Source of the DNA: Acholoe squamosa
Taxonomy: Eukaryota; Annelida; Polychaeta; Phyllodocida; Polynoidae
Length of the DNA stretch: 64,000 nucleotides
Direction: 5' to 3'
NCBI GenBank assembly: GCA_949317995.1
Contig: OX439036.1
Coordinates: 88,759,920 to 88,823,919 of the forward strand
Notes under the pieces: model-generated
Database searches by the model: none
Told to the model about the DNA's origin: nothing
Seen by the model: only the letters and a program-made list of their open reading frames with translations
Program-made: the position numbers and the translations under genes
In this document: positions 30,807 to 55,614 of the stretch, in pieces
How the letters are laid out: every line of letters begins with the position of its first letter
Position numbering within the stretch: the stretch's first letter is position 1

Positions 30807-31290
30807 CTTGGCCAGCTTTCAGCTTGCCTTTTTTTATTTATATAAAAAAGATCACACTATAGTCACACCCTCATCTACATAATAAACTACACCTCTTTAT
30901 GCTAATAAGGTCACATAACTACTTGCTTGCTGCATACAGCTGACTGACGGTATGACATGTGGACAGCCAACCAATCAGAGGTCTCCATTTATGTTTTTTT
31001 TTATATAGAGCAGCGCTCATTTTTTATTTGAAAAAGAAAAAATGTCTATAGCTATACAGGTCTTCGCTACATTTTTGATATTTTGTTATATAAACACCAC
31101 AGGACACCACAGGACAATACATAGCGCATTATTATAGTGAGTATGACAATAGATGTGTTCTATATGACTAGTGATAGAGACTAGATACTGATATACCTCT
31201 ACATCGATACAGTTTTCGCAGCTCCGTTCCCCTATCTAGGAAGTATGCTATGAGTGAGATACTAGGGTTCTTTCAGTGTATGCAGAGCAG

Positions 31291-34200
31291 TTACATTGAG
31301 TCCAAAATAGCCTCCCATTTCCTAAACTTCTTTTGCTTGTTCTCCAGACTGCATATAAATTGTTCTGAGAGAAGAGAGTGTTTAAACTCTCCTATCCATT
31401 GCAACAGATCAAGATGGCACTTGTGATACAAACGCTGCCTATAAATGTAAAACCTGGTTCTAAGCATTACATTGTTGATGATATCATCATTTGGAATTTT
31501 TCTACATAATCCAAGTATCAATTCATGCTCATCTAAATTCCCTGTATCAATCTTAGCAACAGTGTTTATCCATCGTATGACTGACTTCCAGAAGTAGGCT
31601 ACTGGGGGGCATTTCACAAGGAAGTGATCAAGAGTGTCAGTCTTACCATCACAATATACACATTCTGGGCTTTCCTTTGCACGTATATCAAACAAGTATT
31701 TGTTACAAGCTAGTATTTTATGGAGTACCTTATATTGAAATGATTGTAACTTTGTTTCCCTACTCACTTGGTATGGACACATATATATGTCATACCATGG
31801 AACCTTTGTAAATTGGACCTTAGGAAAGACTTTTGCCCATTTCATTTCATTCCTTGGCATTTGTTGTGAGTGACGGTATAGAACTATCCAATACAATTCC
31901 TTGCTTGATGTTGAAAAGAGATTAACTACATCTGGGGTATTATCAATGACCCAAATACAGTCATTTGGCCTTTGAATTTCGTCACTGGATATGCTAGCTC
32001 TCCAGCTACCTGGTATACTTTGTCGGATTTGTAGAGCCTGAAGAAAGTTACACTGAACACCATACCTTTGAGAAATTTGAGTGTCTGACATAAAACTTCC
32101 ATTATCCAGTAAATCTTCAACCCTGACAATACCAGCCTCCCTCCACGATTTCCAAACTATTGGTGTATTATTGATAGTAATAAACTTATTTTTCCACAAT
32201 ACTTCATTACGGACCTCCGTTTCTCTTACTAGTGAGACATTTTGGAATTCATGCCAGTCCTTGAGAACCTGATAATAGAATGGGCTTGCTTCTCGTGGTA
32301 TGTTAATATCTGATTTTGTATGAATGAACAGTTTCAAGTCAGACACTTCATGGAGAAATAACTTAATAAAATCACATGGAACCATGGCGGTATCCCAATA
32401 GAACCTTTTGATCCAGTTTATGTTAGATACAATGATTTTCGTTTTAAAATTGCCTACTGCAAGTCCACCATGCTTAGTCTGTGCCTGAACACGTGCCCTG
32501 GCTACCTTGTTCCTGTTGGAGCCCCATAGGAATTTGTCAACAATTCTATTGACTTCATCTATTGCTCTAGATGGTGTAGTGGTGACTGAGGCCGGGAACA
32601 TCACACAAGGTAGCATTAGGCTGTTTATGATGATAGTTTTACCTTTGAGTGAGATGTTGCGGTGCCTCCAATCATCACTTATGTTGGTGATTTTCTGTAT
32701 CTGGGGTTCAAAGTTCCACGAGTAATTTTGGGCTTCTGTCCTATTCGATGCTACAGAGATGCCCAGGACAATCAATCTTTCACTCCATGCAAGACCCTCC
32801 AATCCAGTCTGACTAGTGTCAATACCACCAAGTGCAAGATATTGTGTCTTATATCTATTCACCTTCAGACCAGAGTACCTCCTAAACCTTCTCAAACAGT
32901 CCAGCAGGTGATGTAGAGCTGCTGCTGATTCGATAAAACAAGTGGTATCATCAGCATATTGACATATCTTTACTTCTCTAGTACCAAGTCTTATACCTTT
33001 AATATCTACATTCATGCGTACATTATGAGCTAACAGTTCTACGGCAATAACAAACAAAAAAGGCGATAGACAGCATCTCTGTCTGGTTCCGCATGCAAGT
33101 TCAAACCAGTCACTTGTGTACCCATTATTTATGACACAGGCAACAATGTCTTTATATAATATCCTGACCCATGAGATGTATTTTTCCCCAAATCCAAACC
33201 TTTCAAGTGCCTTAAAGATAAACTCCCACCTTATCTTATCAAATGCTTTTTCAAAATCAACCGCCATCAGAATACCAGGCCGACTGAACTTTGTGGTGTA
33301 TGCTAATATATCTTCAACTGTGCGAATACTTGTTCCTATATACCTTGACCTAACAAATTCAGATTGATCTGAGCTTATAATACTAGGGAGGTGGGGTTTT
33401 ATCCTTTCTGCCAGGGCCTTGGTGTAGATCTTATAGTCTGTATTCAGCAGGCTGATCGGCCTCCAGTTTCCTAGCTGGAGTCTATCTTTTTCCTTTTTAG
33501 GGATAAGGGTTATAATGCCACGTTTCTGTTCTTGGCTCAAGCTGCCCGTTTCCGTGGCATAGAGTAGACTTTGACTAACATCATCCCCAATATCATTCCA
33601 GAAGAACTTATAAAACTCTGCACTTAGCCCATCAGTGCCTGGGCACTTCCCATTCTTTAAGGATTTAAGACTGTTGAGAAAAGCTGACTTTGATAAAGGT
33701 CTCTCTATCATCTCTCTCTGGTTGTCAGACAAGACAGCTAAGTTGTTTGTATCTATGAAGGGACAACGGTCATCAATATCATCTAACTCTCTATAGCTAT
33801 CTGAGTATAGATTTCTGTAGAATTGCTTCTGTACGCTAAGGATATCTTTGCATTCAGTGACTATATGCCCATTTTGATTTTTCAGTTGAGTAATAAGTTT
33901 GTCCATAAAATTCTTTTTTTCTAAATTCAAAAAGTATTTGGTTGGTCGTTCACCTACCTGGGACCAATTCGCTTTTGACCTAAACATGATGGCTCTAGCT
34001 GTCTTTAATTCAATATCTTTTAGGTCTCTCTTAACACTTTCCATTTCATCAATTACATCATGGCCCTCATCAAAGGCTGCAGTCAATTTGCCCAGACTGT
34101 TTGTTAACTCCCTCTCTACCTTTTTAGACTCTGCCTTCTTCTTTTTGCTGTAATTAATTGAAAATTTCCTTATCTCATACTTCAGAATCTCCCACTTCGC

Positions 34201-35067
34201 ATTGGGTGCCAGATCCTGGTATTCTATCTTACATTTTCCAAGCATAGTCTTAAGTTGATTCACATAGTCTTTATCTGAGAGAAGGGTATTATTAAACTTC
34301 CACACATTTGGGCCTCTGTCCTGGTCAGCACTGGAGATTCCCAGTGTTACCTTACTGTGGTCAGATAGCGTTCCAGGACGGATATCTGTTTTATGAACAA
34401 AGCCTGTCAAATGCTCAGACACTAGCCAGAAATCTATCCTGGATGCTTGCTCTTGCCTATGAAAAGAATATCTACGTAAATTAGGATGTCTAACTCTCCA
34501 TATATCCACTAAGCTGAGAGTATCTTGTAGACTGTATATTTGCTTCCTATACTGCCTATTAGCCACCCTTATACTATTAGTTGCCCTTCTGTCTATATAT
34601 GGGTCCGGGGTTTCATTAAAGTCACCTCCAAGGAGAAGGTTTTCGACTTCATAGCCTTTTAATCTATCTGTTATTTTATCTAATACAGCCATCTGGTCTG
34701 CTTCATAGTTTTGTGTTGGAGCATAAATATTGCATAAGACATAATCCACTCCCTGAACCTCGATGTGTAATATAATATACCTCCCATTAGCATCCAGTGT
34801 CTTTTCTAGGCACTTGTAAGGGTAATTTCTATTGAAGAGTATGGCTACACCTTTAGATGATGAGCTGCCATTTGCACATATCATATCACCACCCCACTCA
34901 GCCCTCCAAATCTTTTCTACTTCTGCTGTGCAGTGGGTTTCCTGAAGGAAGACAATATTATAACTTTCATCCTTTAGCTTCTTGAAAATAGCTCTTCGCT
35001 TATCTCTCACCCTTATGCCATTAACATTAAAAGAGCATAGGTTAATCACTCTTGTGTTATTGGTCAT
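31291..35067 (-). CDS. LINE ORF2: AP endonuclease / reverse transcriptase, 1258 aa
   Basis: Residues 1-245 form the endonuclease/exonuclease/phosphatase fold, with SFNVNGIR (12-19), QETH (42-45), NIYAPTQN (113-120), GGDFNETP (147-154), RIDFWLVS (210-217) and SDHSKVTL (235-242). Reverse transcriptase spans about 460-790, with GKCPGTDGLSAEFYKFFW (473-490), LIPKKEKD, NWRPISLLN, AVDFEKAFD (602-610) and the catalytic YADD (704-707). Near the C-terminus is a CX2CX8HX4C knuckle (CVYCDGKTDTLDHFLVKC). The protein nicks target DNA and copies its own RNA at the nick. Two conserved RT blocks look altered: GTRQRCCLSP where the family has GxRQGCPLSP, and DQSEFVRSRYIG where a Gly usually precedes FV. Activity may therefore be reduced even though the frame is open. 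Length is usual for L1-type ORF2. Confidence 0.95.
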   Translation of the reverse strand: MTNNTRVINLCSFNVNGIRVRDKRRAIFKKLKDESYNIVFLQETHCTAEVEKIWRAEWGGDMICANGSSSSKGVAILFNRNYPYKCLEKTLDANGRYIILHIEVQGVDYVLCNIYAPTQNYEADQMAVLDKITDRLKGYEVENLLLGGDFNETPDPYIDRRATNSIRVANRQYRKQIYSLQDTLSLVDIWRVRHPNLRRYSFHRQEQASRIDFWLVSEHLTGFVHKTDIRPGTLSDHSKVTLGISSADQDRGPNVWKFNNTLLSDKDYVNQLKTMLGKCKIEYQDLAPNAKWEILKYEIRKFSINYSKKKKAESKKVERELTNSLGKLTAAFDEGHDVIDEMESVKRDLKDIELKTARAIMFRSKANWSQVGERPTKYFLNLEKKNFMDKLITQLKNQNGHIVTECKDILSVQKQFYRNLYSDSYRELDDIDDRCPFIDTNNLAVLSDNQREMIERPLSKSAFLNSLKSLKNGKCPGTDGLSAEFYKFFWNDIGDDVSQSLLYATETGSLSQEQKRGIITLIPKKEKDRLQLGNWRPISLLNTDYKIYTKALAERIKPHLPSIISSDQSEFVRSRYIGTSIRTVEDILAYTTKFSRPGILMAVDFEKAFDKIRWEFIFKALERFGFGEKYISWVRILYKDIVACVINNGYTSDWFELACGTRQRCCLSPFLFVIAVELLAHNVRMNVDIKGIRLGTREVKICQYADDTTCFIESAAALHHLLDCLRRFRRYSGLKVNRYKTQYLALGGIDTSQTGLEGLAWSERLIVLGISVASNRTEAQNYSWNFEPQIQKITNISDDWRHRNISLKGKTIIINSLMLPCVMFPASVTTTPSRAIDEVNRIVDKFLWGSNRNKVARARVQAQTKHGGLAVGNFKTKIIVSNINWIKRFYWDTAMVPCDFIKLFLHEVSDLKLFIHTKSDINIPREASPFYYQVLKDWHEFQNVSLVRETEVRNEVLWKNKFITINNTPIVWKSWREAGIVRVEDLLDNGSFMSDTQISQRYGVQCNFLQALQIRQSIPGSWRASISSDEIQRPNDCIWVIDNTPDVVNLFSTSSKELYWIVLYRHSQQMPRNEMKWAKVFPKVQFTKVPWYDIYMCPYQVSRETKLQSFQYKVLHKILACNKYLFDIRAKESPECVYCDGKTDTLDHFLVKCPPVAYFWKSVIRWINTVAKIDTGNLDEHELILGLCRKIPNDDIINNVMLRTRFYIYRQRLYHKCHLDLLQWIGEFKHSLLSEQFICSLENKQKKFRKWEAILDSM

Positions 35068-35555
35068 AGCCTTTTGGATATAGAATAGGGGTCATATTAT
35101 GTTTGGTTTTACACAGAATTTGTGGGGTATCAATAACTCTACTTCTTAGGTTCAGTTGTCTTACAATCATCCACAGCCACGCTGTGAGGGTACAATACTC
35201 ATATATCATCATATACGCCTTGCTAACATTCTGTTGGCACCTCATAGAAACAAAATACAATAACACAACTACCAAAATGATGTACATAATCTTGCGCATA
35301 CAAATAACAGATAAACATAAACACACAAGAAAAGAAAAGTAAAGCAACCACATTTAGTTGCTCCATAGACCATGCGTCTCATGCAACTGAGAGAGCTGTT
35401 TGATAATATGTTCATTTTTGTTGGGTATTTTATTTAAGACTATCGCGATCCATCCCTAAGTTGAATGAATCTTGAGCACCACATGGTTACACCCAGCTGT
35501 TGCAGTCATTACCATCAATACACACATACATGTACCCATTTTGGGACCAAGTAAG
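35068..35555 (-). other. LINE inter-ORF spacer
   Basis: The 488 bp between ORF1 stop and ORF2 start is AT-rich. A frame of 98 codons overlaps the ORF2 start (35353-35057 on -) but has only a hydrophobic, low-complexity product. Confidence 0.5.
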
Positions 35556-37112
35556 TTAGGCAGTATCCTCAAATTCCTGGCGCACCTCTTGGAGAATTTT
35601 ACCAAGCAGGTTTTTTCCAGACCATAGCTCTTGGTTTAAGGCGTTCTTATCAGTCAGTCTCATCCCTATGCCCCATACAGCATCTTTTGAGGCTTCACCA
35701 ATAACCTTATTTCCTGTGCTAAGGAGACGCTGGCGAATGAGTGGATTTTGTTGGACCTTAGCCCTAATCCCTTCCATTGCAATGGACTTGGATTTAGCGA
35801 TCCATTCGTCCTTGTGCTCTTCCCTGCACTTGTGTAGTATGCCCTTTAGCTTGGCAGGCACATCCAGCCGCCATGCCCGTCTCTCTAAGTCTTCACGCCT
35901 TGCGATAATGCACCTTTGTATGGCGAGGTATTTCTCCATCGATGTGTAGGTCTTGTCTCCGATCTTAAATGTAGCAGGGTAGTGGTTGCTAAAAGGGGAG
36001 GCCTTGGTGAAGAAAACTACAGTGTTCTCATTCTCTAGTGTAGCCAGAGCCTCTGGTCCCAAATATTCAGGAAGAGTGTCCCAGTTTTCTTTGTTGTAGA
36101 GCTTGCCATCAAGGTACAGGGATGTGCCCGACATTCTCACCTCTCTGTAAGTACCATGGTTCTTGGCCACCCAATATGTCTTTTTAACTTTAGCTAGTTC
36201 CCCTTTCAGTTTGGTGGGGATATCCTCACTGAGCCAGAGTTGGGCACCGTTTACTTTGTAGTCCCTAAACTGTGCTCTTCGCCCCCACAATTTATTTCTT
36301 GCATCCAGGAATTTCAGCCTTATTAGTACAGGCCTTGTAGCTTGTCCGGGGTTCCTCGTAATGCGATGAGCCACGTCAATGCAGCTATTCTCCATTTTTG
36401 CATGGCGCCAAAAGATTCTTCCCAACTCTGCCCTCAAACTTTCAGATGTTTCGTTTTCACCCTCTGGGAGGCCATCCAGCAGTAAGTTCAATTTTCTTGA
36501 GTACGCTTCCTGTTTGATGGTGTTGTCCTCATTTCTCTCGAGGTGAGCCTTATTTCCTTTAACCTGTATCTCAGTTTCCTCCAGCCTGGTTTTCGTCTCT
36601 GATAGTTCGTTCTTTGTTTCCGTTAGATCCTTCTGGAGCTTAGCGACGTGCTCCTTCAGGACCTGGATGTCGCCTTTGTTGATTTCTACATCCTCTGCCA
36701 CACTTGAAAGGTTATCGTTGAATTCCTTGATGTCGTTTGCAGTAGTTAGACCAGTATTGTCGACTCTGATAAGCCGTTCTTCGATCCTGGCTAAAGTTCT
36801 AGCTAGCGTGAGTAAACTCAGCTCCTCAAGGTTGATGTTCTGGGTTAGTGTAGGTTTGCTAGCAGTACCAGCTACCCCGCTGTTAGACTGGTGTTGGTGG
36901 GCTTCTTTGGTGACCCTCAGTTTTCTATCAGTATCGTCATCAGACAATCCTGCTTCGTCAGGCATTTTTTTTTTCGCTGCTTTGTCAGTGTTTTTACAGT
37001 CCATGGGGGCCTCCCCTTCCCCAGACGAGTTGCTCTCCATTGTGACCAGTGGTGCACCGGTTGGAATAGATACAGCACCCCCACATTGATCACTGACATT
37101 TGATGTTGACAT
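35556..37112 (-). CDS. LINE ORF1 protein with C-terminal NADAR domain, 518 aa
   Basis: An acidic, Ser-rich N-terminus (1-90) is followed by a helical, heptad-rich coiled coil (about 95-200) that should trimerise, and then an RRM-like and C-terminal RNA-binding unit of L1 ORF1p type (about 201-345; NLLLDGLPEGENE, DVAHRITRN, RPVLIRLKF). The extra part, about 362-514 (36029-35571), matches the NADAR/YbiA fold: VVFFTKASPFSNHYPATFKI, TSMEKYLA with E393 at the place of the family's catalytic Glu, LLSTGNKVIGEAS (463-475), WGIGM (480-484) and LWSGKNLLGKILQEVR (496-511). NADAR enzymes cleave N-glycosidic bonds; some members remove ADP-ribose from guanine in nucleic acid and E. coli YbiA acts on riboflavin intermediates. 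In the element it should act within the RNA-protein particle. The domain match is clear by motif; enzyme activity is inferred. The same frame encodes all parts without a break. Confidence 0.92.
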   Translation of the reverse strand: MSTSNVSDQCGGAVSIPTGAPLVTMESNSSGEGEAPMDCKNTDKAAKKKMPDEAGLSDDDTDRKLRVTKEAHQHQSNSGVAGTASKPTLTQNINLEELSLLTLARTLARIEERLIRVDNTGLTTANDIKEFNDNLSSVAEDVEINKGDIQVLKEHVAKLQKDLTETKNELSETKTRLEETEIQVKGNKAHLERNEDNTIKQEAYSRKLNLLLDGLPEGENETSESLRAELGRIFWRHAKMENSCIDVAHRITRNPGQATRPVLIRLKFLDARNKLWGRRAQFRDYKVNGAQLWLSEDIPTKLKGELAKVKKTYWVAKNHGTYREVRMSGTSLYLDGKLYNKENWDTLPEYLGPEALATLENENTVVFFTKASPFSNHYPATFKIGDKTYTSMEKYLAIQRCIIARREDLERRAWRLDVPAKLKGILHKCREEHKDEWIAKSKSIAMEGIRAKVQQNPLIRQRLLSTGNKVIGEASKDAVWGIGMRLTDKNALNQELWSGKNLLGKILQEVRQEFEDTA

Positions 37113-37878
37113 ATTAAACCTGGGCGAAGTCTAAAGATGCACAAGGTCTAACCCCTACCAACTGACTAAACCTTGACCAGTGTTGGGTATTTAGTCACAA
37201 TAGGGCTGGGGAGGGACAGCTAATAGGAGATCGACCTGTGCAGTAGTTCACTGGGTTATATACTCATATTTCATATGTGGTTAAGTTGATACAGCACCGA
37301 CAATTGAGAACACATGGACATGGAGCCATGTATGGCCACTACATGTTACATAGAGCCTGCCTCCATACCTTTGGGTGCATTCTAACAATATATAGTTTAT
37401 GGGGGTTTCCTACAGTGTAGTTGCTTAAAGAATAGTTGTATACTTTAAAGTTGTAGAGTTACTGTTACTAACTGTAGTAGTAGTGTCTCGAACACACCCA
37501 GCACACTCAAGTCAGATACCACATCAAGGCTCTATGATATCTTGACTACCAACTGCCTGTTTAGCAGCATTTATATCTGCCCAGGCATGTAACTCCTTAA
37601 ATATAATGTACAGCTCAAAATTGTCATAGAGAGGCCCAACAAACGCCAAAATGATCGTGAAAGTCTACCGAGTAAGGCTACGCTTATGCCGTGTTGTTAT
37701 TGTTTATATGGGCCGAGCGGGAAGACGGTTTTTGTCATGTACTTCCTGTTGCTACTTGCTTCAATTATCACTCAGTTCTGTCCATGTGCGACCTAAATGT
37801 GGTTTGTTTCTGTGTAATTTACTGAAGAATTTGAGAGGGACTTCACATATACAGGTTCCTTGGTACTTGTCCGTTTGT
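37113..37878. other. LINE 5' UTR and flank
   Basis: Upstream of ORF1 on -. The LINE 5' end is not sharply visible. No repeated terminal sequence matching the 3' flank was found. Open frames are short. Confidence 0.35.
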
Positions 37879-38262
37879 TCAGCGAAGCTTGTGCTCCCTA
37901 ATAGGGCTATAGAATGCCAAAAAAACAGTTGTCTGCTGGGAGTGATATTGCTGGGCACTTCTCTGGCTGGGTGCGTTCGACTCTCCTCGTCTCCATTTAT
38001 TTTGGCAAAAAGTTTTTAGAAAAAGAGTCACATCACCAAATCTTTCAAATTTCCCACCAAAATGACGACCTCTGATTGGTCCATTCAAATTAGGGCTAGT
38101 CTCTTCCAATGGTTTTATCTCAGCTTTGTACCCTGTATTTTTCTGTGTTGTATCTAATTGGTGTAATTGGGGAAGCTGATTTGACCTAAGTCTTTTAGGT
38201 AAAAACTCATCTGGTATTTCTTCTAACTTGTCCATACTGTATATGGTACCATTGACCTTCAA
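37879..38262 (-). pseudogene. Possible fragment of another LINE ORF1 C-terminal region (weak)
   Basis: The frame starts MKVNGTIYSMDKLEEIPDEF, which resembles the LINE ORF1 segment LYLDGKLYNKENWDTLPEYL (332-351) in the order Gly, Tyr, Leu and Pro. This is where the RNA-binding unit ends. The following residues (FGGKFERFGDV) match neither NADAR nor anything else I know. It could be a decayed relative of the neighbouring LINE or a chance frame. Confidence 0.25.
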
Positions 38263-40080: not shown

Positions 40081-40216
40081 TGTAATTTGTTGAAGGAAGA
40101 ACCAAGACCTTACAATTTGGTGCCTCGTGCTAGACTAACGTTTATTCCTCTATTGTCACTCAACTTCCGGTCCCTAACATTCTACACACAAGATGGCGCC
40201 AAGCGCATACGTTACA
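40081..40216 (-). repeat. Gypsy 3' LTR (136 bp)
   Basis: On + it runs TGTAATTTGTTGAAGG ... GCATACGTTACA, with TGTAA/TTACA terminal inverted repeats. Bases 40088-40165 match 44917-44994 with one difference noticed. It is short for an LTR but bounded exactly by the polypurine tract on one side. Confidence 0.85.
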
Positions 40217-40248
40217 TCTCCCTTTTTCTCTTTATTTTCTTTTTTTTT
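40217..40248 (-). other. Gypsy polypurine tract
   Basis: A pure pyrimidine/T-rich run on + (TCTCCCTTTTTCTCTTT...), purine-rich on -, abuts the 3' LTR and would prime plus-strand DNA synthesis. Confidence 0.75.
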
Positions 40249-40488
40249 AAAAAAGAGAAGTTACTATATAGCACAACCTGCACTAATGAACATGACTCAA
40301 CCAGTCTTCAATATAGCAAAGGCTACTTTGATGTGAAGAAAAAAAAAATCAAGTGTCTGTCTTCTTTTCTTGAACAGTCTCATGATAAAACGATGCAAAA
40401 TACCATAATTTCAAATCCCTTTGGATCACTTATAGTTAATGTCACAATGACTAACTGAACAGTCCTTTGAAGATAACATATAAAAGTT

Positions 40489-43400
40489 TCAAAGATCGAG
40501 CTTTTTGGGTGGTTTGCTCAACCTGCCACTACTGGTGCGATATGGAGCACCATTACCTTGAGCAGAGTCGTTTCTGCAAGTAGGAGTTGGAGGCACTTCT
40601 CTTGGGCAACTAACAGTAACAGTTGGGTGAGGTGATTTCTGTGGCGAGAGTGGCTTAGGTGGAGATGGTAAGTCAGCAGGTGTTTGCGGTATGATATCGA
40701 TAGGTGGTATGTTCACAGTTGTTCTCTGGGCCACAGTAGCCCTAGTTATTTCAGCAGTACAGTTATTGTTAGCATTCTTGTTGGCCTCATGTGTTGCCAA
40801 TCGTATATGCTGACGGTTTCTCCGATACTTTCGCCCTTCACGCTCCACCACATAGGACCTTGGCTCCTCATGATGTCTCACAACAGTCCCTGGCACCCAT
40901 TTCCTAGATCCTGGGAATGGTGACATTCTTACTGGATCACCTACCTTAAGTGGTGGTAGGTCACTTAGGTGCTTGGCATCATGATAATGTTTCTGTGACC
41001 TTTTAGATTGGTCCAAGGCTTTTCTCACATCCTTAATGTCTATTTGTTTTGGGTTTAGTAACTCTGTAGATATTGGAATTGTGTTATATGGCCTTCTGCC
41101 CATACTCAGCTGTGCTGGTGACAGGCCACAAGTCTCCATCGGTGTTGTTCTATGATCTAGCAGTGCCATATATTTCTCACTGGCTTTGGCCCAAAGTCTT
41201 TTCACTATTTGCACTGCTCTTTCGGCCTCCCCATTAGACTGAGGGTAGTTTGGAGATGATGTGACATGTGTAATGTGTCTTATAACACAAAATCGTTTAA
41301 AATCCTGACTGGAGAACTGAGGTCCATTATCTGTCCTAAGAGTCTCTGGTAGGCCATGAACTGCTAGTTGGCGCATCAGAGTCTCTTGTGTAGTTGCCGA
41401 TGACATGTCATGCAGTTTGTCTACTTCAATAAATTTAGTCATATAGTCTACAGTCAGCAAATAGTTTTGTCCTTTCCACTCAAATATATCACTAGCCACC
41501 TCCTGCCAGGGGCGTTGGGGTGTTGGGGTTGGACGTAGGGTCTCTGATGGCTGCTTATTCTGATAAGTATTACAGGTTGCACAATCACTGACCAGTTCGT
41601 CGATTCTTTGGCTCATCCCTGGCCAGTACAGTGCTTCCCTCGCTCTCTGTTTACACTTTGTGATGCCAAGGTGGGATCCATGAACCTGGGTGAGCATCTC
41701 TGCTCGAAGACTAGGTGGCACCACAATCCTCATCCCTTTATACACAATGCCATCTGAAACTGCAAGCTCATCTCTAATGGACCAGTACTCCCTTATGCTG
41801 TGTGGCACTTGTTCTTTTGTATCTGGCCAACCTTTGAGTATGATGCTGTACAGCTCGTTCATCTCATCAGCTGTTGTTTCTTGGAAACTGCGATACCGGG
41901 TTGGAGTAACAGCGATAAAGTTAACCATATTAACTGTAATATGTTCTATGTCTTCTTCTGCTTCTGGCAGGTTTGCCCGGCTCAGTGCATCTCCCATAGG
42001 AATATCCTTTCCTGGAACATAGCAGACATTTAGGTCATAGGGCTGAAGGCGTAGCATCATCGTCTGGAGTCTCATTGGCGCTGCTAAGATAGGTTTCGTG
42101 AAGATTGATTGAAGTGGTTTATGGTCTGACTGCACAACCACTTCTTTGCCAAAGACATAGTGATGAAATTTCTTGCAACAGTGGACAATAGCTAGCGTCT
42201 CTTTCTCTATCTGAGCATATCCTCGTTCTGTGCTTGTCAGGGCCCTTGAGGTATATGCCACTAGTTTGTCATTTTGGAGCAACACACCTCCTAGTGCATA
42301 GCTGGATGCATCACACTGAATCTTGACTGGTTTCCGCACATCATAGTATGCCAGTACTGGGGCATTGCAACACAGGTCTTTCAGCTTCTCGAAGCTGCAC
42401 TGCTCAGGCTCTTCCCACACAAACTCTGAGTCTTTCTTTGCGAGTGCACATAGAAGTGCTGCAATCTCACTGAGGTTAGGGATGAACTTTGAGATATACT
42501 GATCAAACCCCAGAAATCGACGTACACAATCCTTTGTCTGAGGTGTCGGCATCTCTCTCACAGAATTGACTTTGTCTGGGTCAACCTTTAGACCTTCTGA
42601 CGAGACAATATAACCAACATACTTGATGCTAGATTTCCTGACCTGACACTTTCCGAAGTTCAACTTCAAGTTCCACTCTGTAGCTCGTTCAACTACTCTT
42701 TTCATAATAGCATCATGGTGGGTTGTGTCTCTCCCTGCTATCAGAATGTCATCCATCACTGCATATGCACCCGAGATATCCTGATGCATGTAATCCATTA
42801 TCCTCTGGTAGATTTTAGGTGCGGATTTCACCCCAAAGGGTAGACTCAGCCACCGATACCTTCCAACCGGTGTGTTGAATGTTGTCAATAGACTTGACTC
42901 ATAATCCATCTTAATTTGCAAGAAACCGGATTTTGCATCAATAACAGTGAATACTTTGGCATCTCCCATGGATACAACAATGTCCTCAATGGTCGGGGTT
43001 GGGTAATGTTCCCGTCTAATCGCTGTATTTAGATCTCGTGGATCAAGGCAAATTCTTATTTTATCATTCTTCTGGACCACCACCATGGAACTTACCCAGT
43101 CTGTGGGTTCTGTGACTTTGGTGATGTGACCATCCTCCTCCATTTCTTTCAGGTTTACCACAATCTTCTCACGCAGAGCATGGGGTTGACGTCGGGCTCC
43201 ATGCACAACTGGCTTTACGGTTGGATCTACCTTGAGAGAGTAGATCCCTGGAAGAGTTCCTGTCAATTTCTTCAGCTCTGGGTATTGATCTATGCCTTGA
43301 TCGACTGTGTGGATACGCTTCAGGAGACCCAATTGTGTGTATGCTGACCCTGATAGGAGTGGAGTTTGGTCCTGCTCTGTGATGTAAAACTTAACTTTTA

Positions 43401-43596
43401 TTTCATGAGACTTCCATATGACTGGGAATACTGCAGTGCCAAGTAGTGGGATTGGGTGCTGGGTATAGGATTGATAAACACGCTTGGTTGGATGAATCAG
43501 AGGTTTATCCACCATCCGATTAAAGGTCTTCACTGACATGAAAGACTTGTCTGCACCAGTGTTGAGCTGAATCCAAACCTTGACACCACCAATCAT
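40489..43596 (-). CDS. pol: Gypsy pol: protease, reverse transcriptase, RNase H, integrase, 1035 aa
   Basis: Protease lies at the N-terminus, where the active-site block reads LNTGA (11-15): Asn stands where aspartic proteases have the catalytic Asp. RT is about 140-335 (RICLDPRDLN, FTVIDAKSGF with D220, LPFGVKSAP, VMDD 280-283). RNase H is about 425-545 (IQCDASSYALGGV, EKETLAIV, QSDHKPL, GDALSR). Integrase has an HHCC finger (H639, H642, C672, C675) and a D703, D756, x35, E792 triad. A GPY/F-like module follows (KVGDPVRMSPFPGSRKWVPG). The C-terminal 100 residues are Pro-rich and not conserved. The frame is the same as gag and is separated from it only by a stop codon and three codons. The Asn suggests decay of the copy. 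Confidence 0.95.
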   Translation of the reverse strand: MIGGVKVWIQLNTGADKSFMSVKTFNRMVDKPLIHPTKRVYQSYTQHPIPLLGTAVFPVIWKSHEIKVKFYITEQDQTPLLSGSAYTQLGLLKRIHTVDQGIDQYPELKKLTGTLPGIYSLKVDPTVKPVVHGARRQPHALREKIVVNLKEMEEDGHITKVTEPTDWVSSMVVVQKNDKIRICLDPRDLNTAIRREHYPTPTIEDIVVSMGDAKVFTVIDAKSGFLQIKMDYESSLLTTFNTPVGRYRWLSLPFGVKSAPKIYQRIMDYMHQDISGAYAVMDDILIAGRDTTHHDAIMKRVVERATEWNLKLNFGKCQVRKSSIKYVGYIVSSEGLKVDPDKVNSVREMPTPQTKDCVRRFLGFDQYISKFIPNLSEIAALLCALAKKDSEFVWEEPEQCSFEKLKDLCCNAPVLAYYDVRKPVKIQCDASSYALGGVLLQNDKLVAYTSRALTSTERGYAQIEKETLAIVHCCKKFHHYVFGKEVVVQSDHKPLQSIFTKPILAAPMRLQTMMLRLQPYDLNVCYVPGKDIPMGDALSRANLPEAEEDIEHITVNMVNFIAVTPTRYRSFQETTADEMNELYSIILKGWPDTKEQVPHSIREYWSIRDELAVSDGIVYKGMRIVVPPSLRAEMLTQVHGSHLGITKCKQRAREALYWPGMSQRIDELVSDCATCNTYQNKQPSETLRPTPTPQRPWQEVASDIFEWKGQNYLLTVDYMTKFIEVDKLHDMSSATTQETLMRQLAVHGLPETLRTDNGPQFSSQDFKRFCVIRHITHVTSSPNYPQSNGEAERAVQIVKRLWAKASEKYMALLDHRTTPMETCGLSPAQLSMGRRPYNTIPISTELLNPKQIDIKDVRKALDQSKRSQKHYHDAKHLSDLPPLKVGDPVRMSPFPGSRKWVPGTVVRHHEEPRSYVVEREGRKYRRNRQHIRLATHEANKNANNNCTAEITRATVAQRTTVNIPPIDIIPQTPADLPSPPKPLSPQKSPHPTVTVSCPREVPPTPTCRNDSAQGNGAPYRTSSGRLSKPPKKLDL

Positions 43597-43605
43597 CAGT
43601 TTTTC

Positions 43606-44556
43606 CTACCACTCACTCTGAGGATCCTTTGGCTGTTGCACAGTATTGACCAGGTGAGCAAGCCCATCATCACTACCTAACTCGTCACCACTGTCCTCGG
43701 ATTGCTCGTCGACCGCATGTGCACCTTTCTGAGACCTACTTTTGACTTTTCTCTTTGCTTTATAACAGACTGCTGCGAAATGGCCTTTACTTTTACAGTA
43801 GTTACAGGTCGCACCACGGGCAGGGCAATATTCATGTGTGGCATCGTAGCCACACTTGTCACATAGCTCTAACTTAGGTGGTTTCTCTTTAGATGTCGAG
43901 GGCTTTTTTCTCATTTTGGGTGGCTCCTGTTTCTTAACTACCTTAACAGTGTCATCTTCCCAATTCACCTCCTGTAATGTCTCTTTGGAGGATTCATAGC
44001 TTCGACCAAATGTGATGGCCTCTTTGAGGGTGAGTTCCTCCCCTTTGTCAAAGCACTTCTCCTTGACCTTTGCATGGCAGGACCCAATAACTATCATGTC
44101 TCTGAGCATGCGGTCCTCATGTGTACCATATCCACAGTCCTTTACCAGTACACGCAGAGAAGTCACAAAGTCATCAAATTTCTCATCAGGCTTCTGCCTA
44201 TGACGCAAAAACCTAGCTGTAGCCCTGATTTCATCTCTAAAGGGTTTGACATGGTCCTCATACTTTTTGAATACTGACTCAAGAACTTCATTTTCTGCTG
44301 CCGCATCATCCCCATCTGCAGGCTCCCAAGGGAAGGTGTCATACAATTCCTGACCTTTGTTACCAATAAATGTCATCAAATAATTCACTTTTTCTACTTC
44401 GCTTTTGCCAGCCAATGGACCACCAAAATGGAAAACACAGTGTTGTTTAAACGGTTTCCATTCTCTAACCAGGTCTGAGGCATCCGAATCCATGGATGGA
44501 ATATTTTTCTCAGCCATTTTACTATTTTGAGCCTTTAAATCACTGTAGATGTTCAC
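43606..44556 (-). CDS. gag: Gypsy gag with two zinc knuckles, 316 aa
   Basis: The N-terminal part is capsid-like (FKQHCVFHFGG, VNYLMTFIGNKG, FRHRQ-type helix RFLRHRQKPDE). It is followed by a basic linker and two knuckles: CDKCGYDATHEYC (232-244, CX2CX5HX2C) and CNYCKSKGHFAAVC (251-264, CX2CX4HX4C). The protein forms the particle shell and binds the element RNA. The first ATG (44556) gives 13 extra residues before MAEKNIPSMDSD, which may be the true start. The frame ends in TAG, in phase with pol. Confidence 0.93.
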   Translation of the reverse strand: MNIYSDLKAQNSKMAEKNIPSMDSDASDLVREWKPFKQHCVFHFGGPLAGKSEVEKVNYLMTFIGNKGQELYDTFPWEPADGDDAAAENEVLESVFKKYEDHVKPFRDEIRATARFLRHRQKPDEKFDDFVTSLRVLVKDCGYGTHEDRMLRDMIVIGSCHAKVKEKCFDKGEELTLKEAITFGRSYESSKETLQEVNWEDDTVKVVKKQEPPKMRKKPSTSKEKPPKLELCDKCGYDATHEYCPARGATCNYCKSKGHFAAVCYKAKRKVKSRSQKGAHAVDEQSEDSGDELGSDDGLAHLVNTVQQPKDPQSEW

Positions 44557-44893
44557 AACTAGCTTCCAGCACCACTAAATCAATGGTAGAAACTAACACA
44601 CTTGACCAGCTAGAATAGCCCTCAACAAGCAAATGGCACAAAGTCAGTTCAATATGGGATTGGCTGGACCAAATTATTAAAATGCCCATGTAGCACACAA
44701 ATTCACAGTTCAACCAAGCACCAACATGTGGCTTCACTTTCAGGGTTCTTGAGATCCAGGCTGGACACTTTGGTCTACTCACAATTTCCTGGATTCAATT
44801 CCTTTACAAAATGACATCTCCTGGTAAGCTTATACATCAATTCATCAATTGGCATTACCAGGTGGGTTTGCTTTCTCTTCTAGAGCTGTAGAA

Positions 44894-44909
44894 CCACTTC
44901 TGACAACCA
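44894..44909 (-). other. Gypsy primer-binding site, tRNA-Leu-like
   Basis: On - TGGTTGTCAGAAGTGG starts directly after the LTR end (CATTACA). It resembles the TGGTGTCAGAAGTGG site of elements primed by tRNA-Leu, with one extra T. Confidence 0.65.
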
Positions 44910-44994
44910 TGTAATGTGTTGAAGGAAGAACCAAGACCTTACAATTCGGTGCCTCGTGCTAGACTAACGTTTATTCCTCTATTGTCACTCAACT
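44910..44994 (-). repeat. Gypsy 5' LTR, truncated to 85 bp
   Basis: TGTAATGTGTTGAAGG ... TTGTCACTCAACT corresponds to 40081-40165 of the 3' LTR with two differences noticed. The remaining 51 bp are replaced by ATTCAGGCTATTCGTGGG, which belongs to the neighbouring Ngaro/DIRS-type element. Confidence 0.85.
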
Positions 44995-45590: not shown

Positions 45591-46575
45591 ATGTGTTTGA
45601 CAATATCTCTCCATGTCTTACCTCTAGAGCCGGTTTACAACTACCTACAGAGGAGAGCAGCTCGCCGCCAATTCAAAGCACGGGCCGAGGGTGCAGAGAG
45701 GGGCAGGAAGTCCACGGTCCTCCAGTTCCTCCGCGTCACATATCAAATGGGCATTGACCCCCTGGAGCCGACTTACCAAGATCTGTGCACATGGATAGAG
45801 CACCTCGTCGATCAGGGGCTCACTCCACTGACTATCAAAAACAAAATCAGCCATTTGAGAGTGTATGCCACCTTAGTCCAGGCCTCAACTGCCCCATACA
45901 ATCACCCAAGGGTGCTTCGGGCTTTGGACGCCCTCATGAAGGACAAAAACTTTGTGCATCTCAAGACGACAGCCATCACCATCCCACACCTAAAACTTTT
46001 AATTTTGTCTCTCCCACCCACACTGGAAGGACGGGCAGTCAATGCAGCAATCCTCCTAATGTACCATGCTGCCCTGAGACAATCCGAGGTGCTGCCACCA
46101 AGTCTGGTTCGGTGGTCAAATACAAGGCACTCCACGCAAGAGGACCTAGTCATAAGCCATTCAGGTCTTACGCTCAATATAAAATGGGCCAAGAATCTTC
46201 AAAGTTACACACAAAGCAAGAATGTGACACTGGCACCCATGGAGGACAAGAGGTTCTGTGTCGTCCACGCCATGATCAGCCCACAAACACACCAAATCAA
46301 CCACTGATAGCCTTCCCGGGCAAGCCCAACAGACCCATACCAGTGTCATATGCAAGGAGGGTATGGATCCAGTAAAATCATCGGGCATATACCAGAAGGG
46401 CTATACCTTGCACTTCCTCAGGAGAGCCGCAGCTACACAGGCTCATGAGGCAGGCTGTACAGAACTGGACATTCAGGTCTACGGCGGATGGGCCTCCAAT
46501 GCACATTGCGCATATATTCGCTCACATAGAACCCAACAGGTCAACAAAGCCATCCGCCAGGCCTTCATTTCATAG
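45591..46575 (+). pseudogene. Tyrosine recombinase of Ngaro/DIRS-type element, frameshifted
   Basis: The N-terminal core-binding part (STVLQFLRVTYQMGIDPLEP; LVDQGLTPLTIKNKISHLRV) and the first catalytic Arg (ALRQSEVL, Arg codon near 46077) are in the frame 45591-46307. The HxxR block (YTLHFLRRAAATQAHEAG, His codon near 46411), GGW and the nucleophilic Tyr (CAYIR, codon near 46513) lie in another frame, 46363-46575. Between them a third frame holds PLIAFPGKPNRPIPVSYA. All catalytic signatures are recognisable, but at least one and probably two indels break the protein. Such recombinases integrate a circular DNA copy without a DDE integrase. Confidence 0.8.
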
Positions 46576-52127: not shown

Positions 52128-55100
52128 TCCCCTTTGGTCGTGCTACTATCCCGTTTGAACCTCCTCCAGATGGTGAGTACAGTGTTTCAATAGTCAGATT
52201 TAGGAAAATGCTGAAGTATCTTAAATTGGCCTTTCCATTTGTATCTGCGGTTATCCTTCCGACGGGCACAAAATGAATTGTGTAGGCATATTTCTTAAAA
52301 TCTTTAACCGAACTGATAATAAATCAGTTGTTGCATGCTATTAGGCAATATATTTTCAAAGATAGGCCTACCAATACCAATGGACCTATTCTTGTTGCTT
52401 GTAATTAGCCAAAACTATAAAAAATATATAAAATTGTTTTATGTGTAACAATTCTAGATACAATCGTCTTGTTGGTCCTAAAGTTGAAAACCTTTAGTTT
52501 ATCTATATAATTATCTACAGTCCAAACAAAGAGAAATATGTTATAGAATTAAGCATTCTGATAACTGTCAAAGTACTTCTGATCCGATAGGCGTTGCACC
52601 TCCATTACATATTTTCGGAAGACTTAAGAAAGCGATCATTTTTAACAAGATGATGTGGGGGATTTGAGGGGGCTGGGGCATCATTTGATCCCTCTGAAGG
52701 GTGGCACAAAGACCTCTTACCTGTTTGCCTGAAAACCCTTCCGTCACTGGAGGTATTCCTCAATAATCATTGGATCCTTCAACAACTGAGGCCATGAAAG
52801 GTTTAAAAGAGGACAGAAGGTGTTTTTTTTTCATCCATCTTTGCGAGGACCCACAAGCTCCTGTTGTTGAAAACTGATTATTGTCTTAACATTTCCTTCC
52901 GTCTTTCTATTTCTAAACTACTAGACTACGAAAAATGGAAAATCCCTGTGGCAGTGGCAGTTCCTGTTGCTGCTTTTGTGATTCTGATGGGCATCATCTC
53001 TGTCATAATATGGTAAGACACTAAGATTGTATTATGAGGTGGCCCACATAATTATCTAATTCATTGCCACCATTTATCAGTATACAGAATTAACCTAATA
53101 ATCTTGGATGTAATTTATAAGGTATCACTTCTCTAAAGAGAAAGTGACTTACTATGCAGTATAGTGTCCAAAACATTTCTTGTACTTTGATTATTTTTGA
53201 ATACAAGAAATGTATTTAACACTAGTGCAGAGTCAATACACACGACCCCAGCTTTCTATCCTTTATTGGTATTTCACTCTCCAATATAAATCCAGAATAA
53301 AATTGAAATCTATTACATAGTCTCCTCCATTACTTGCAGCATGAGAAGAAGGAGACAAGCAAAAAAGTCGAAAATCAGCAACACGGAGCTGCATCGCTTA
53401 TCGCGGATTGATAGGAACCGAAATGCTACAAGTCTCCAGTACTCAGACTCTTTGAGAATACAACCACTGAGAGTCAACCTACCTCCTCCTCACTGTGCAG
53501 AAGGGCCAGACAGCCGTGCCACATACTGCCTAGCTAATGAAATTGATGAGGATGTCTCTGGTGGCTACAGCCCTCTCTGTGAATATGACTCTTCTGGTAT
53601 TCCAGCTCCTACAAAAGGTGCTGTTGTTAATGGAAATAACCAGTCTGACTATGACTTCATCCCTTCTGATGCTGCTACCGCCATGGCAGGGGACGATGCA
53701 TATGGCCATATCCCACCACCAAATACTGGAGCAGCAAATCCAACCAAGAAACAGCAGAAGGCTCACAAGGACGCCGAGCTCACAGCAAGTGGTGATGAAT
53801 ATGATTACATACCACCTCCAAATGTTGGTACTGCAAAGGAGAAAGAGCCAAGGGAACCACAAAAAGAGAATGAACTATTGGCCAGTGGTGGCGAATATGA
53901 TCATATACCACCCCCAAATGTTGTAACAGTAAAAGGGCCGATGAAATCACCGAGGGATAATGAAATAATGGCAAGTGGTGATGAATATGACCATATACCA
54001 GATGCCAAAAATGCAGCTGTTAACAAACATCTGAATGGGTCCAATGCAGGAATAACAATGAACAGTGATGAGTATGATCATATACCTAAAGCAGGATCAT
54101 TTGACAGCAGGGCAAAGAATTCACAGAAAGCAGTAGACGATGAGTATGATCACATACCAACTCTTGCAAATACTAATATCAATGTCATCAACATGTTGGA
54201 CGATAAGGCTGAAACATCCGGATTGACACCAGGGGATTATGATGATGATGCGTATAACCATATTCCGAGACAAGGTCAGACTGTAGCAGCCATGACAAAT
54301 AGTGATGAATATGACCATATGCCAACTGCAAAAACTGCTTGTGTCACCATCATGAAAAAGCCAGATAGTGATTCCAACATGTCAAATTTGATGCAATCTA
54401 GTGATGAGTATGACCACATCCCCAACAAAACTCCTGCAAACATCACGGTCATGTCAGAATCACCAGATAGATCAATGGAAACTGATTCTGAATACGATCA
54501 CATCCCATCTGCAGCTTTAACTAATGTTATAGTCATCAAGAAACCTCATATTGATGATGAGGAGAAGGACGTGGATGATGAGACCCTTGGGCTGATGACA
54601 AGTGATGATGAATATGATCACATTCCAGGCAGCATCCCTGCTGAGGTCACAGTGGTCAATAAACCTGCTGATAAAGATCCGTTTCTAGGTAAGCCTCGCT
54701 TCCTTGTGAATGATGAAGGTGGTGCCAATGATGAAGCCAATACTGAAGAATCAGATAATGGTGACGGCGATCATGATAATGATGGGGATGCAGTAGGGGT
54801 GGAAACGGAGGGTTATGCAGATGCGGGAGACGGTATAGGTGAGAACCAAGATGCAGGAGAAGATGAGGAAGAATCTGATCATCAAAAGGTCCCAAAGGGT
54901 AGGAGTTCTACTAAATCAACAAAATCAGCTAAGGTTCTTGTTGCTGACAACACACTTTATGAGAAGACTTGTATTGATGTTTCCTGTGGTTCCCCAACTG
55001 TGGTACTCAACAATAATGGAAAGAAATGGGATGGGAAGGAGGAAGAACATTTTGAGCCAAAGGATAGGGCCCAGGAAGAAAGTGATGAAAATGAGGACAG

Positions 55101-55614
55101 CTTTATAAAAGGTATCCAGCAGGATAAAGTTGTTACTCCAAAGGTGCTGGTGAATGTCAATAACCTATATGAAGGCCTCCCTGAACCCTCCACTCCAGTT
55201 TTAGATCCAAATAACCCTGCTTATGACCCAGCAAATCGATCTGCTCGCAAGTATAGCAGTACATATGAGAACGTTTCTGTAGGTATCAGACGAACATCAT
55301 CTCAGGAAGTGAACCCTGATTTGGCCGCAAGTTGGCAATCTCATGAGACGAATGAAACTCGATCAGAAAATAGAGATGGTTCATTTGGGTACATAACTGA
55401 TGATGATAGTGTCTTCTACCGCTCACATGAATACTTAAATGATCATGATGATGATCCTTTTGCTCAGCTGGAGGAGGAAGGTCACCAGTTGGTTCAGAAG
55501 GACAATGACCTGTTCCAGGAGACAGGTGAAGTGCCCAGGACTGCTAAGGTTCTGGTGGCTGACAATGAAATGTACAGTTCATCTGATTCTGATGTGGAGG
55601 AGTCAAGGTTGTGA
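52128..55614 (+). CDS. Gene C (3' exons): single-pass membrane protein with 12 EYDHIP-type tyrosine motifs in the tail
   Basis: Three exons join in frame: 52128-52172 (VPFGRATIPFEPPPD), 52925-53012 (DYEKWKIPVAVAVPVAAFVI... membrane segment ending SVII) and 53340-55614 (stop TGA at 55612-55614). Donors are GTGAGT and GTAAGA; acceptors are TTTCAG, CTACTAG and TTGCAG. Junction phases 1 and 2 keep the frame. After the membrane comes RRRR, a stop-transfer signal. The tail (757 residues from the Met at 53341) has Tyr motifs at residues 104, 121, 154, 186, 216, 245, 269, 305, 324, 358, 385 and 425, mostly DEYDHIP, then an acidic stretch (450-515) and three KVLV..N..Y motifs (531, 601, 736). Such motifs fit SH2-domain docking after phosphorylation; this is inferred. 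The extracellular part lies in exons not identified upstream. I know no family with this tail. Confidence 0.85.
52625..52755. mobile_element. MITE, GGGAGTGATCA family, left-end fragment
   Basis: GAAAGCGATCATTTTTAACA then AGATGATGTGGGGG and ATTTGATCCCTCTGA. It lies in an intron of gene C. The right end is not found. Confidence 0.4.

Follow-up and report, generated by a model that had tools for sequence, protein, structure and literature searches.

NADAR domains have been reported in ORF1 of several Tx1 LINE families of the oyster Crassostrea gigas, with a suggested role in the processing of RNA intermediates (a passage of PMC12477816, Genome Biol 2025). This was the one paper found in the open-licence literature searched that reports NADAR in a LINE ORF1; in the same search no paper was found to describe an ORF1p-plus-NADAR domain layout, selection on NADAR, loss of the clamp or an ORF1 with both NADAR and esterase.

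Enzymes of the NADAR family remove ADP-ribose or related sugars from nucleic acids and small molecules. NADARs were the only hydrolase family among those tested to reverse guanosine ADP-ribosylation in RNA, as stated in a passage of PMC11833690, and six edible clams possess a guanine-N2 ADP-ribosylating activity on DNA (excerpt of PMC11209040), so that such a modifying activity is present in molluscs. NADARs are also encoded by invertebrate RNA viruses; one passage of PMC9503650 posits a preference of viral NADARs for soluble ADPr derivatives, and another favours macromolecular ADP-ribosylation as the chief target where eukaryotic RNA viruses are concerned. The nematode protein SNA-3 requires its NADAR domains for function, catalysis not being demonstrated in the part of PMC9303266 concerned.

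General features of the element

The window, which is the whole stretch of 64,000 nucleotides of Acholoe squamosa DNA analysed here, contains a non-LTR retrotransposon (LINE) with endonuclease and reverse transcriptase domains in ORF2, a poly(A) tail running on to position 30994, a target-site duplication and no LTR (Table 1).

Table 1. Coordinates of the LINE, its reading frames, ORF1 domains and pocket codons in the window
Feature	Position	Strand	Remarks
Full-length LINE copy, 6,986 bp	31000..37985	-	ends common to other copies; 12-bp duplication on both sides
Target-site duplication, 5' copy ATAAATGGAGAC	37989..38000	-	three extra bases GAG between duplication and element
Target-site duplication, 3' copy ATAAATGGAGAC	30981..30992	-	
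5' untranslated region of element	37113..37985	-	from mapped 5' end to ORF1 ATG
ORF1, 518 aa	35556..37112	-	single intact frame
ORF1 residues 1-94, disordered N-terminal tail	36831..37112	-	pLDDT <50 for residues 1-97
ORF1 residues 95-205, long coiled coil	36498..36830	-	modelled helix 95-205; L1 ORF1p trimer match
ORF1 residues 206-298, L1-type RRM	36219..36497	-	strand/helix order of RRM; matches 2ykq/2yko/2ykp, 2w7a
ORF1 residues 299-357, L1-type CTD	36042..36218	-	helix 300-319, strands 325-339; L1 ORF1p matches ~200 columns
ORF1 residues 358-518, NADAR/YbiA domain	35559..36041	-	Pfam, TIGR02464, structure model
Codon E393, equivalent of pocket residue E43 of P. nicotianae NADAR	35934..35936	-	alignment
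Codon R400, equivalent of K50 (Lys to Arg)	35913..35915	-	R in 41/41 copies
Codon H427, equivalent of pyrophosphate-binding R79 (lost)	35832..35834	-	alignment
Codon E473, equivalent of E125, YbiA-subfamily glutamate	35694..35696	-	alignment
ORF1-ORF2 spacer, 488 nt	35068..35555	-	stops in ORF2 frame upstream of ORF2 ATG
ORF2, 1,258 aa	31291..35067	-	APE-type endonuclease, reverse transcriptase (YADD), zf-RVT (under its cut-off)
3' untranslated region	30994..31290	-	with AATAAA and poly(A)

Both ends were mapped in 13 of the 16 copies examined (window included). A word of 8-16 bases is common to both flanks in 11 of these 13 copies, and none is shared by the flanks of the other two, L014 and L028. 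No fixed target sequence is apparent among the 16 copies, whose flanks vary. The closest full copies, L015 and L009, are 98.7% identical to the window element. Given the shared ends, poly(A) tail, flank words and these nearly identical full copies, the element is mobile and recent.

The 5' untranslated region varies in length within the family: relative to the window it is about 215 bp longer in 10 of the 15 copies L009-L023 (e.g. L012, L016 and L018) and about 154 bp longer in L021. The window element and its four nearest copies (L009, L010, L011 and L015) are without the segment of about 215 bp, which makes its absence a subfamily marker. Inverted CCAATCAGAGG-type arms (38060-38080 and 30970-30990) are present on both sides of the insertion, so the LINE may have inserted within a small palindromic repeat.

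In searches of the PDB, ORF2 matched human L1 ORF2p, its closest solved relative, far above R2. Tx1 is a LINE clade related to L1; the element is called L1-type here on the likeness of its ORF1 and ORF2.

Several other features were recognised in the window. A Gypsy-type element (40081-44994, reverse strand) has 85-bp direct repeats at both sides that are 98% identical, and LTRs longer than these repeats were not seen. Its pol frame (40489-43596) encodes reverse transcriptase, RNase H and integrase according to Pfam, and its gag-like frame (43606-44556) has no Pfam match and a CCHC-like motif recognised by eye. On the forward strand, a 238-aa frame (45591-46307) resembles the N-terminal domain of phage integrases very weakly (E 0.13), and a 757-aa frame (53341-55614), possibly a host protein, contains many YDHIP-like tyrosine motifs and has no Pfam match at E 1. 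The region 2039-4032 is a tandem pair of identical 995-bp copies, representing a recent duplication or an assembly effect, and a 259-bp piece of it occurs again at 1648-1906.

Domain organisation of ORF1

The earlier note on this DNA had placed a NADAR domain at 35571..36029, corresponding to residues 362-514 with the motifs first noticed there, and had proposed that it is fused to a LINE ORF1 protein; both parts of this proposal hold. Pfam NADAR (PF08719) matches residues 370-514 with an E-value of 1.1e-26 and 94.5 bits, against a cut-off of 35.1, and the domain also passes the NCBIfam model TIGR02464, which describes a riboflavin-intermediate N-glycosidase (100.3, cut-off 73.7). A structure model of residues 354-518, built from an alignment of 23 sequences (mean pLDDT 93.7), has the YbiA fold, and the only PDB entries that it matches strongly are the NADAR of P. 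nicotianae with ADP-ribose (8bau) and E. coli YbiA. Predicted viral proteins matching the model include phage, giant-virus and nidovirus NADARs (47 matches at E 0.001 or better). The domain is basic, with a pI of 9.5 and a charge of +7.

The model of the full ORF1 was built from an alignment of 16 sequences (mean pLDDT 78.1). In it the tail (residues 1-97) leads into a helix spanning 95-205; an RRM-like fold at 209-296 and a small CTD at 300-339 come next, and the NADAR domain occupies 358-517. Foldseek placed 8bau first, followed by human LINE-1 ORF1p trimers. On the basis of this model and these matches, the domain order is coiled coil, RRM, CTD and NADAR, the first three standing in the order of an L1-type (type II) LINE ORF1. 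The sequence-profile match to L1 ORF1p (2ykp) is weaker, with an E-value of 4.2e-4 that ranks below two kinds of coiled-coil protein, and none of the Pfam models for L1 ORF1 matched the protein with an E-value of 1 or better. By analogy with human ORF1p, the coiled coil would form a trimer and would thus bring three NADAR domains together in each ORF1p unit.

Active site and ligand pocket

The roles of pocket residues were taken from PMC11543638 and transferred by sequence alignment anchored on 8bau, not by superposed coordinates. The pocket was compared between 22 LINE NADARs and 17 non-LINE NADARs, L050 being excluded here and from one tree as a near-copy of L049. Three of the 22 (P0007, P0008 and P0038) are short proteins or fragments, judged to be LINE-derived by eye and from the tree; without them E43 and E125 are found in 19/19, R79 and Y/F84 in 0/19 and R/K93 in 3/19.

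The catalytic glutamates are invariant among the LINE NADARs. The equivalent of E43 is glutamate in 22/22 and, as E393, in 41/41 copies compared; the equivalent of E125 is likewise present in 22/22, with E473 being glutamate in 38 of the 41 copies, lysine in one and unreadable in two. The tryptophan equivalent to W89 is also found in 22/22. The position of K50 is basic in the window (R400) and is occupied by K in 17, R in three and Q in two of the 22 LINE NADARs. According to passages of PMC11543638, a K-to-R swap in the C7 NADAR of E. coli retained hydrolysis in vitro; the mutant did not rescue cells from DarT1.

The residues holding the other end of the ligand are mostly replaced. R79 is kept in 1/22 LINE NADARs versus 15/17 non-LINE NADARs (p 8e-8) and Y or F at position 84 in 1/22 versus 16/17 (p 7e-9), the kinship of the sequences making both p values overstate independence, while R or K at position 93 occurs in 3/22 versus 13/17. 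The ligand contact W133, retained in the window, is found in 14/22 versus 17/17 and is thus altered in eight LINE NADARs. In the window R79, Y84 and R93 correspond to H427, E432 and S441, so that the pyrophosphate and adenine contacts of the 8bau type are absent. As aligned, the centre holding the distal ribose is fixed in LINE NADARs and the part holding the AMP half is changed. Because the holders of pyrophosphate and adenine (R79, Y/F84, R/K93) are mostly replaced, ADP-ribose may not be the ligand of these domains. However, E. coli YbiA itself is without Y84 and K75 in the alignment but acts on guanosine-ADPr RNA all the same, though less than the C7 NADAR does (passage of PMC11833690), and loss of the clamp is therefore no proof of inactivity on ADP-ribose. 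The window and the public proteins P0001-P0005 share a basic residue at position 430, which, at a guess, might replace the function of R79.

Copies and selection

The genome searched comprises 1.48 Gb in 63 contigs. It contains at least 86 ORF1 matches among the matches listed (83 of 3,068 candidates scored), of which at least 40, including the window, span ORF1 and lie on many contigs; 27 of these spanning matches are without a stop by an eye count among the matches listed. The window and 40 further copies (L009-L048) were compared, giving 41 rows. The selection tree consisted of 37 main-family copies and three divergent outgroups (L024-L026), whose end branches were uncounted, with the truncated L027 excluded.

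Inner branches of such a tree descend from copies still able to jump. On these branches the NADAR domain accumulated 24 N and 38 S changes, a ratio of 0.21, compared with 68 and 33 changes and a ratio of 0.68 on terminal branches. When tested against neutrality, p is 1e-9 for the inner branches and 0.06 for the terminal ones, and the two differ with p 6e-4. Thus, the domain is under purifying selection in a family of many copies, the opposite of the single copy with relaxed selection that the earlier note named as the outcome that would speak against its proposal.

The inner ratios of the other parts of ORF1 are 0.25 (tail), 0.18 (coiled coil), 0.18 (RRM) and 0.10 (CTD), and that of ORF2 is 0.29. 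NADAR and the rest of ORF1 do not differ significantly on inner branches (p 0.65); since these ratios are similar, NADAR is conserved as well as the remainder of ORF1. In the main family without the outgroups the ratio for NADAR is 0.27 (p 7e-4) and that for the RRM 0.60 (p 0.36), so the power per domain is low. Across six divergent ORF1s (window and P0001-P0005), invariant columns amount to 38/161 in NADAR, 5/93 in the RRM and 4/59 in the CTD. By other measures the CTD is more constrained than NADAR: it has the lowest inner ratio, and its identity to P0001 (37/59) is slightly ahead of that of NADAR (96/161).

Other NADAR-bearing families and origin of the domain

A first protein search retrieved six proteins. 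Five of them, P0001-P0005, are public and ORF1-like and end in the same tail; the sixth is P0006. The latter combines NADAR with a macro domain (Pfam PF01661), the two being linked by a long acidic stretch.

When the NADAR profile was run against the same genome, the best 150 of 3,224 candidates were scored and every listed match lay above the cut-off; 94 of the 150 are located in frames of at least 400 aa, the window family among them. From this list 14 other long frames and two apparently standalone ones were sampled. Eleven of the 14 (L051-L061) carry an L1-type RRM/CTD directly before NADAR, as detected with an HMM of the window and P0001-P0005 sequences, which L056 matched only from the second round on; the likeness covers the RRM/CTD and NADAR segment only. 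Together with the public proteins, these frames demonstrate that the fusion recurs in other LINE families, as the earlier note had suggested looking for.

The remaining three frames (L049, L050 and L062) did not match the RRM/CTD HMM. The L049 frame (729 aa) continues by coordinates into an SGNH/esterase-like segment (L065) with a weak Pfam match (SASA, E 0.002, under the cut-off), and matches to an endonuclease (1.5e-8) and to a reverse transcriptase (6.8e-30) lie downstream of it. An endonuclease (1.5e-10) also follows L062 (L066). By their sequence features, these three frames are taken as a second LINE type with NADAR, like CR1/L2 elements with an esterase ORF1.

The two standalone frames, L063 (G000:C17:9901400-9902700) and L064 (G000:C14:681800-683000), encode short YbiA-like NADAR proteins keeping R79. 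They are probably host genes and could be donors or partners of the LINE domains.

In the first NADAR tree, for which 55 of 71 sequences were used (domain of at least 135 residues), the window NADAR groups with P0001-P0005 and P0007 (support 99/95). In a second tree P0008 stands next to this group (99/95), and a branch with support of 69/98 separates it from the majority of the genome's other LINE NADARs. One old capture and several captures are both compatible with the trees.

Proposed function

By analogy with human ORF1p, the coiled coil, RRM and CTD would coat the element's own RNA as an ORF1p-like chaperone, and the C-terminal YbiA-type NADAR would place a hydrolase on every RNA-bound subunit. 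The domain is probably an active N-glycosyl hydrolase. It quite possibly acts on nucleic acid inside the particle, where it would free bases of the element's RNA or first-strand cDNA from an N-linked ribosyl or ADP-ribosyl adduct and leave reverse transcription unblocked. The single likeliest adduct would be ADP-ribose on guanine N2, a known NADAR substrate, with the altered tail pocket allowing for a smaller or different ribosyl adduct. The element would gain escape from an ADP-ribosyltransferase of the host or of a competitor.

Removal of ADP-ribose marks as a counter-defence, suggested in the earlier note, is plausible. This reading is weakened by the replacement of most ADP-holding residues and by the match to TIGR02464, a model of riboflavin-intermediate N-glycosidases. 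Removal of an adduct is supported by the unique ability of NADARs, among tested hydrolases, to reverse guanosine ADP-ribosylation of RNA (PMC11833690, in part), by the guanine-N2 ADP-ribosylating activity of clams (PMC11209040, in part), and by the repeated recruitment of the domain in RNA viruses, a brown-algal Gypsy element, oyster Tx1 and several LINE families here.

A possible but rather doubtful alternative is that NADAR is an active, YbiA-like N-glycosidase of small soluble N-ribosides or of NAD- or riboflavin-related metabolites, which protects or feeds the particle or removes a diffusible immune signal instead of erasing marks on nucleic acid. Passing the curated TIGR02464 model argues for it, as do the kept distal-ribose glutamates with a lost ADP clamp, which fit a ligand without the AMP half, and the soluble ADPr derivatives posited as preferred by viral NADARs. 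However, in the window and 11 further sampled frames NADAR follows an L1-type RRM/CTD, a position which suggests that the domain is brought to nucleic acid, YbiA works on guanosine-ADPr RNA despite its weaker activity, and the other passage of PMC9503650 favours macromolecular targets.

It is unlikely that the domain has lost its catalytic activity, or makes no use of it, and acts instead as a module for binding or folding, e.g. as an extra RNA/DNA-binding face of ORF1p. Its basic charge, the changed clamp residues, the change at the W133 position in 8/22 and the case of SNA-3 are consistent with such a module, but the constancy of the E43, E125 and W89 equivalents in all 22 LINE NADARs and of E393 in all 41 copies exceeds the likely needs of a scaffold. 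Chance capture of a host or bacterial sequence by one copy, for which L063 and L064 could have been donors, or an assembly chimera, is effectively ruled out by the 40 spanning matches on many contigs, the 98.7%-identical full copies, the other RRM/CTD-NADAR families and the public relatives.

An extension of the adduct-removal reading is that LINE-borne NADARs form a hydrolase class of new specificity, with a fixed ribose-cutting centre and an ADP end remodelled once or more, in L1-type and esterase-type LINEs. They would erase an undescribed ribosyl mark put by invertebrate hosts on retroelement RNA or cDNA, a counter-defence akin to that of NADAR-bearing invertebrate RNA viruses; this extension is doubtful.

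If NADAR is active on nucleic acid, retrotransposons would bring their own eraser of base modifications, and host nucleic-acid ADP-ribosylation would become a testable anti-transposon defence. Even without such activity, a conserved enzyme domain follows an L1-type RRM/CTD both in the window family and in 11 other sampled frames of one genome, which shows that the role of an L1-type ORF1p can go beyond that of RNA chaperone. Precise and cheap biochemical tests are made possible by the invariant glutamates and the changed clamp.

Comparison with known systems

Human LINE-1 ORF1p (2ykq, 2yko, 2ykp, 2w7a) agrees with the window ORF1 in the order and fold of coiled coil, RRM and CTD, but the window ORF1 has 161 further residues after the CTD; human ORF1p is not known to carry a NADAR domain. 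The window NADAR shares the fold and the equivalents of E43, E125, W89, D130 and W133 with the P. nicotianae NADAR (8bau) and E. coli YbiA (2b3w). It differs from 8bau by the replacement of R79, Y84 and R93, by arginine in place of K50 and by fusion to a retrotransposon protein, while E. coli YbiA has P at position 84 and K at position 93.

DarT1-associated NADAR antitoxins (E. coli C7) share with the window the superfamily, the conserved glutamate and the basic residue seven positions further on. The window has a YbiA-type glutamate (E473), whereas the BC4488-type antitoxin subfamily has aspartate. No DarT partner was found among the six window frames of at least 200 aa, which contain transposon domains or belong to no Pfam family. 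Assignment to the DarT1-associated (BC4488-type) antitoxins was rejected on the grounds of this glutamate and of the missing DarT neighbour among the large frames.

The esterase-type (type IV) ORF1 of CR1/L2 LINEs, described in the part of PMC4120745 concerned, likewise contains an SGNH/esterase-like segment, as in the L049 frame, where, unlike in those proteins, NADAR stands before it. NADAR is not mentioned in the text of that paper. A brown-algal Gypsy element, in a passage of PMC12477816, is a retroelement with NADAR like that in the window, but it is an LTR element and its NADAR is located in Pol. The closest parallel in kind is provided by the Tx1 LINEs of C. gigas, which have a YbiA-family NADAR in ORF1 as in the window; that report is a short passage (PMC12477816), and the comparison was by description. 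The oyster genome is a different one, with about 0.6 Gb and 10 chromosomes as against 1.48 Gb here. The fusion of NADAR to a LINE ORF1 is thus already in print, and the window element is a further case of it.
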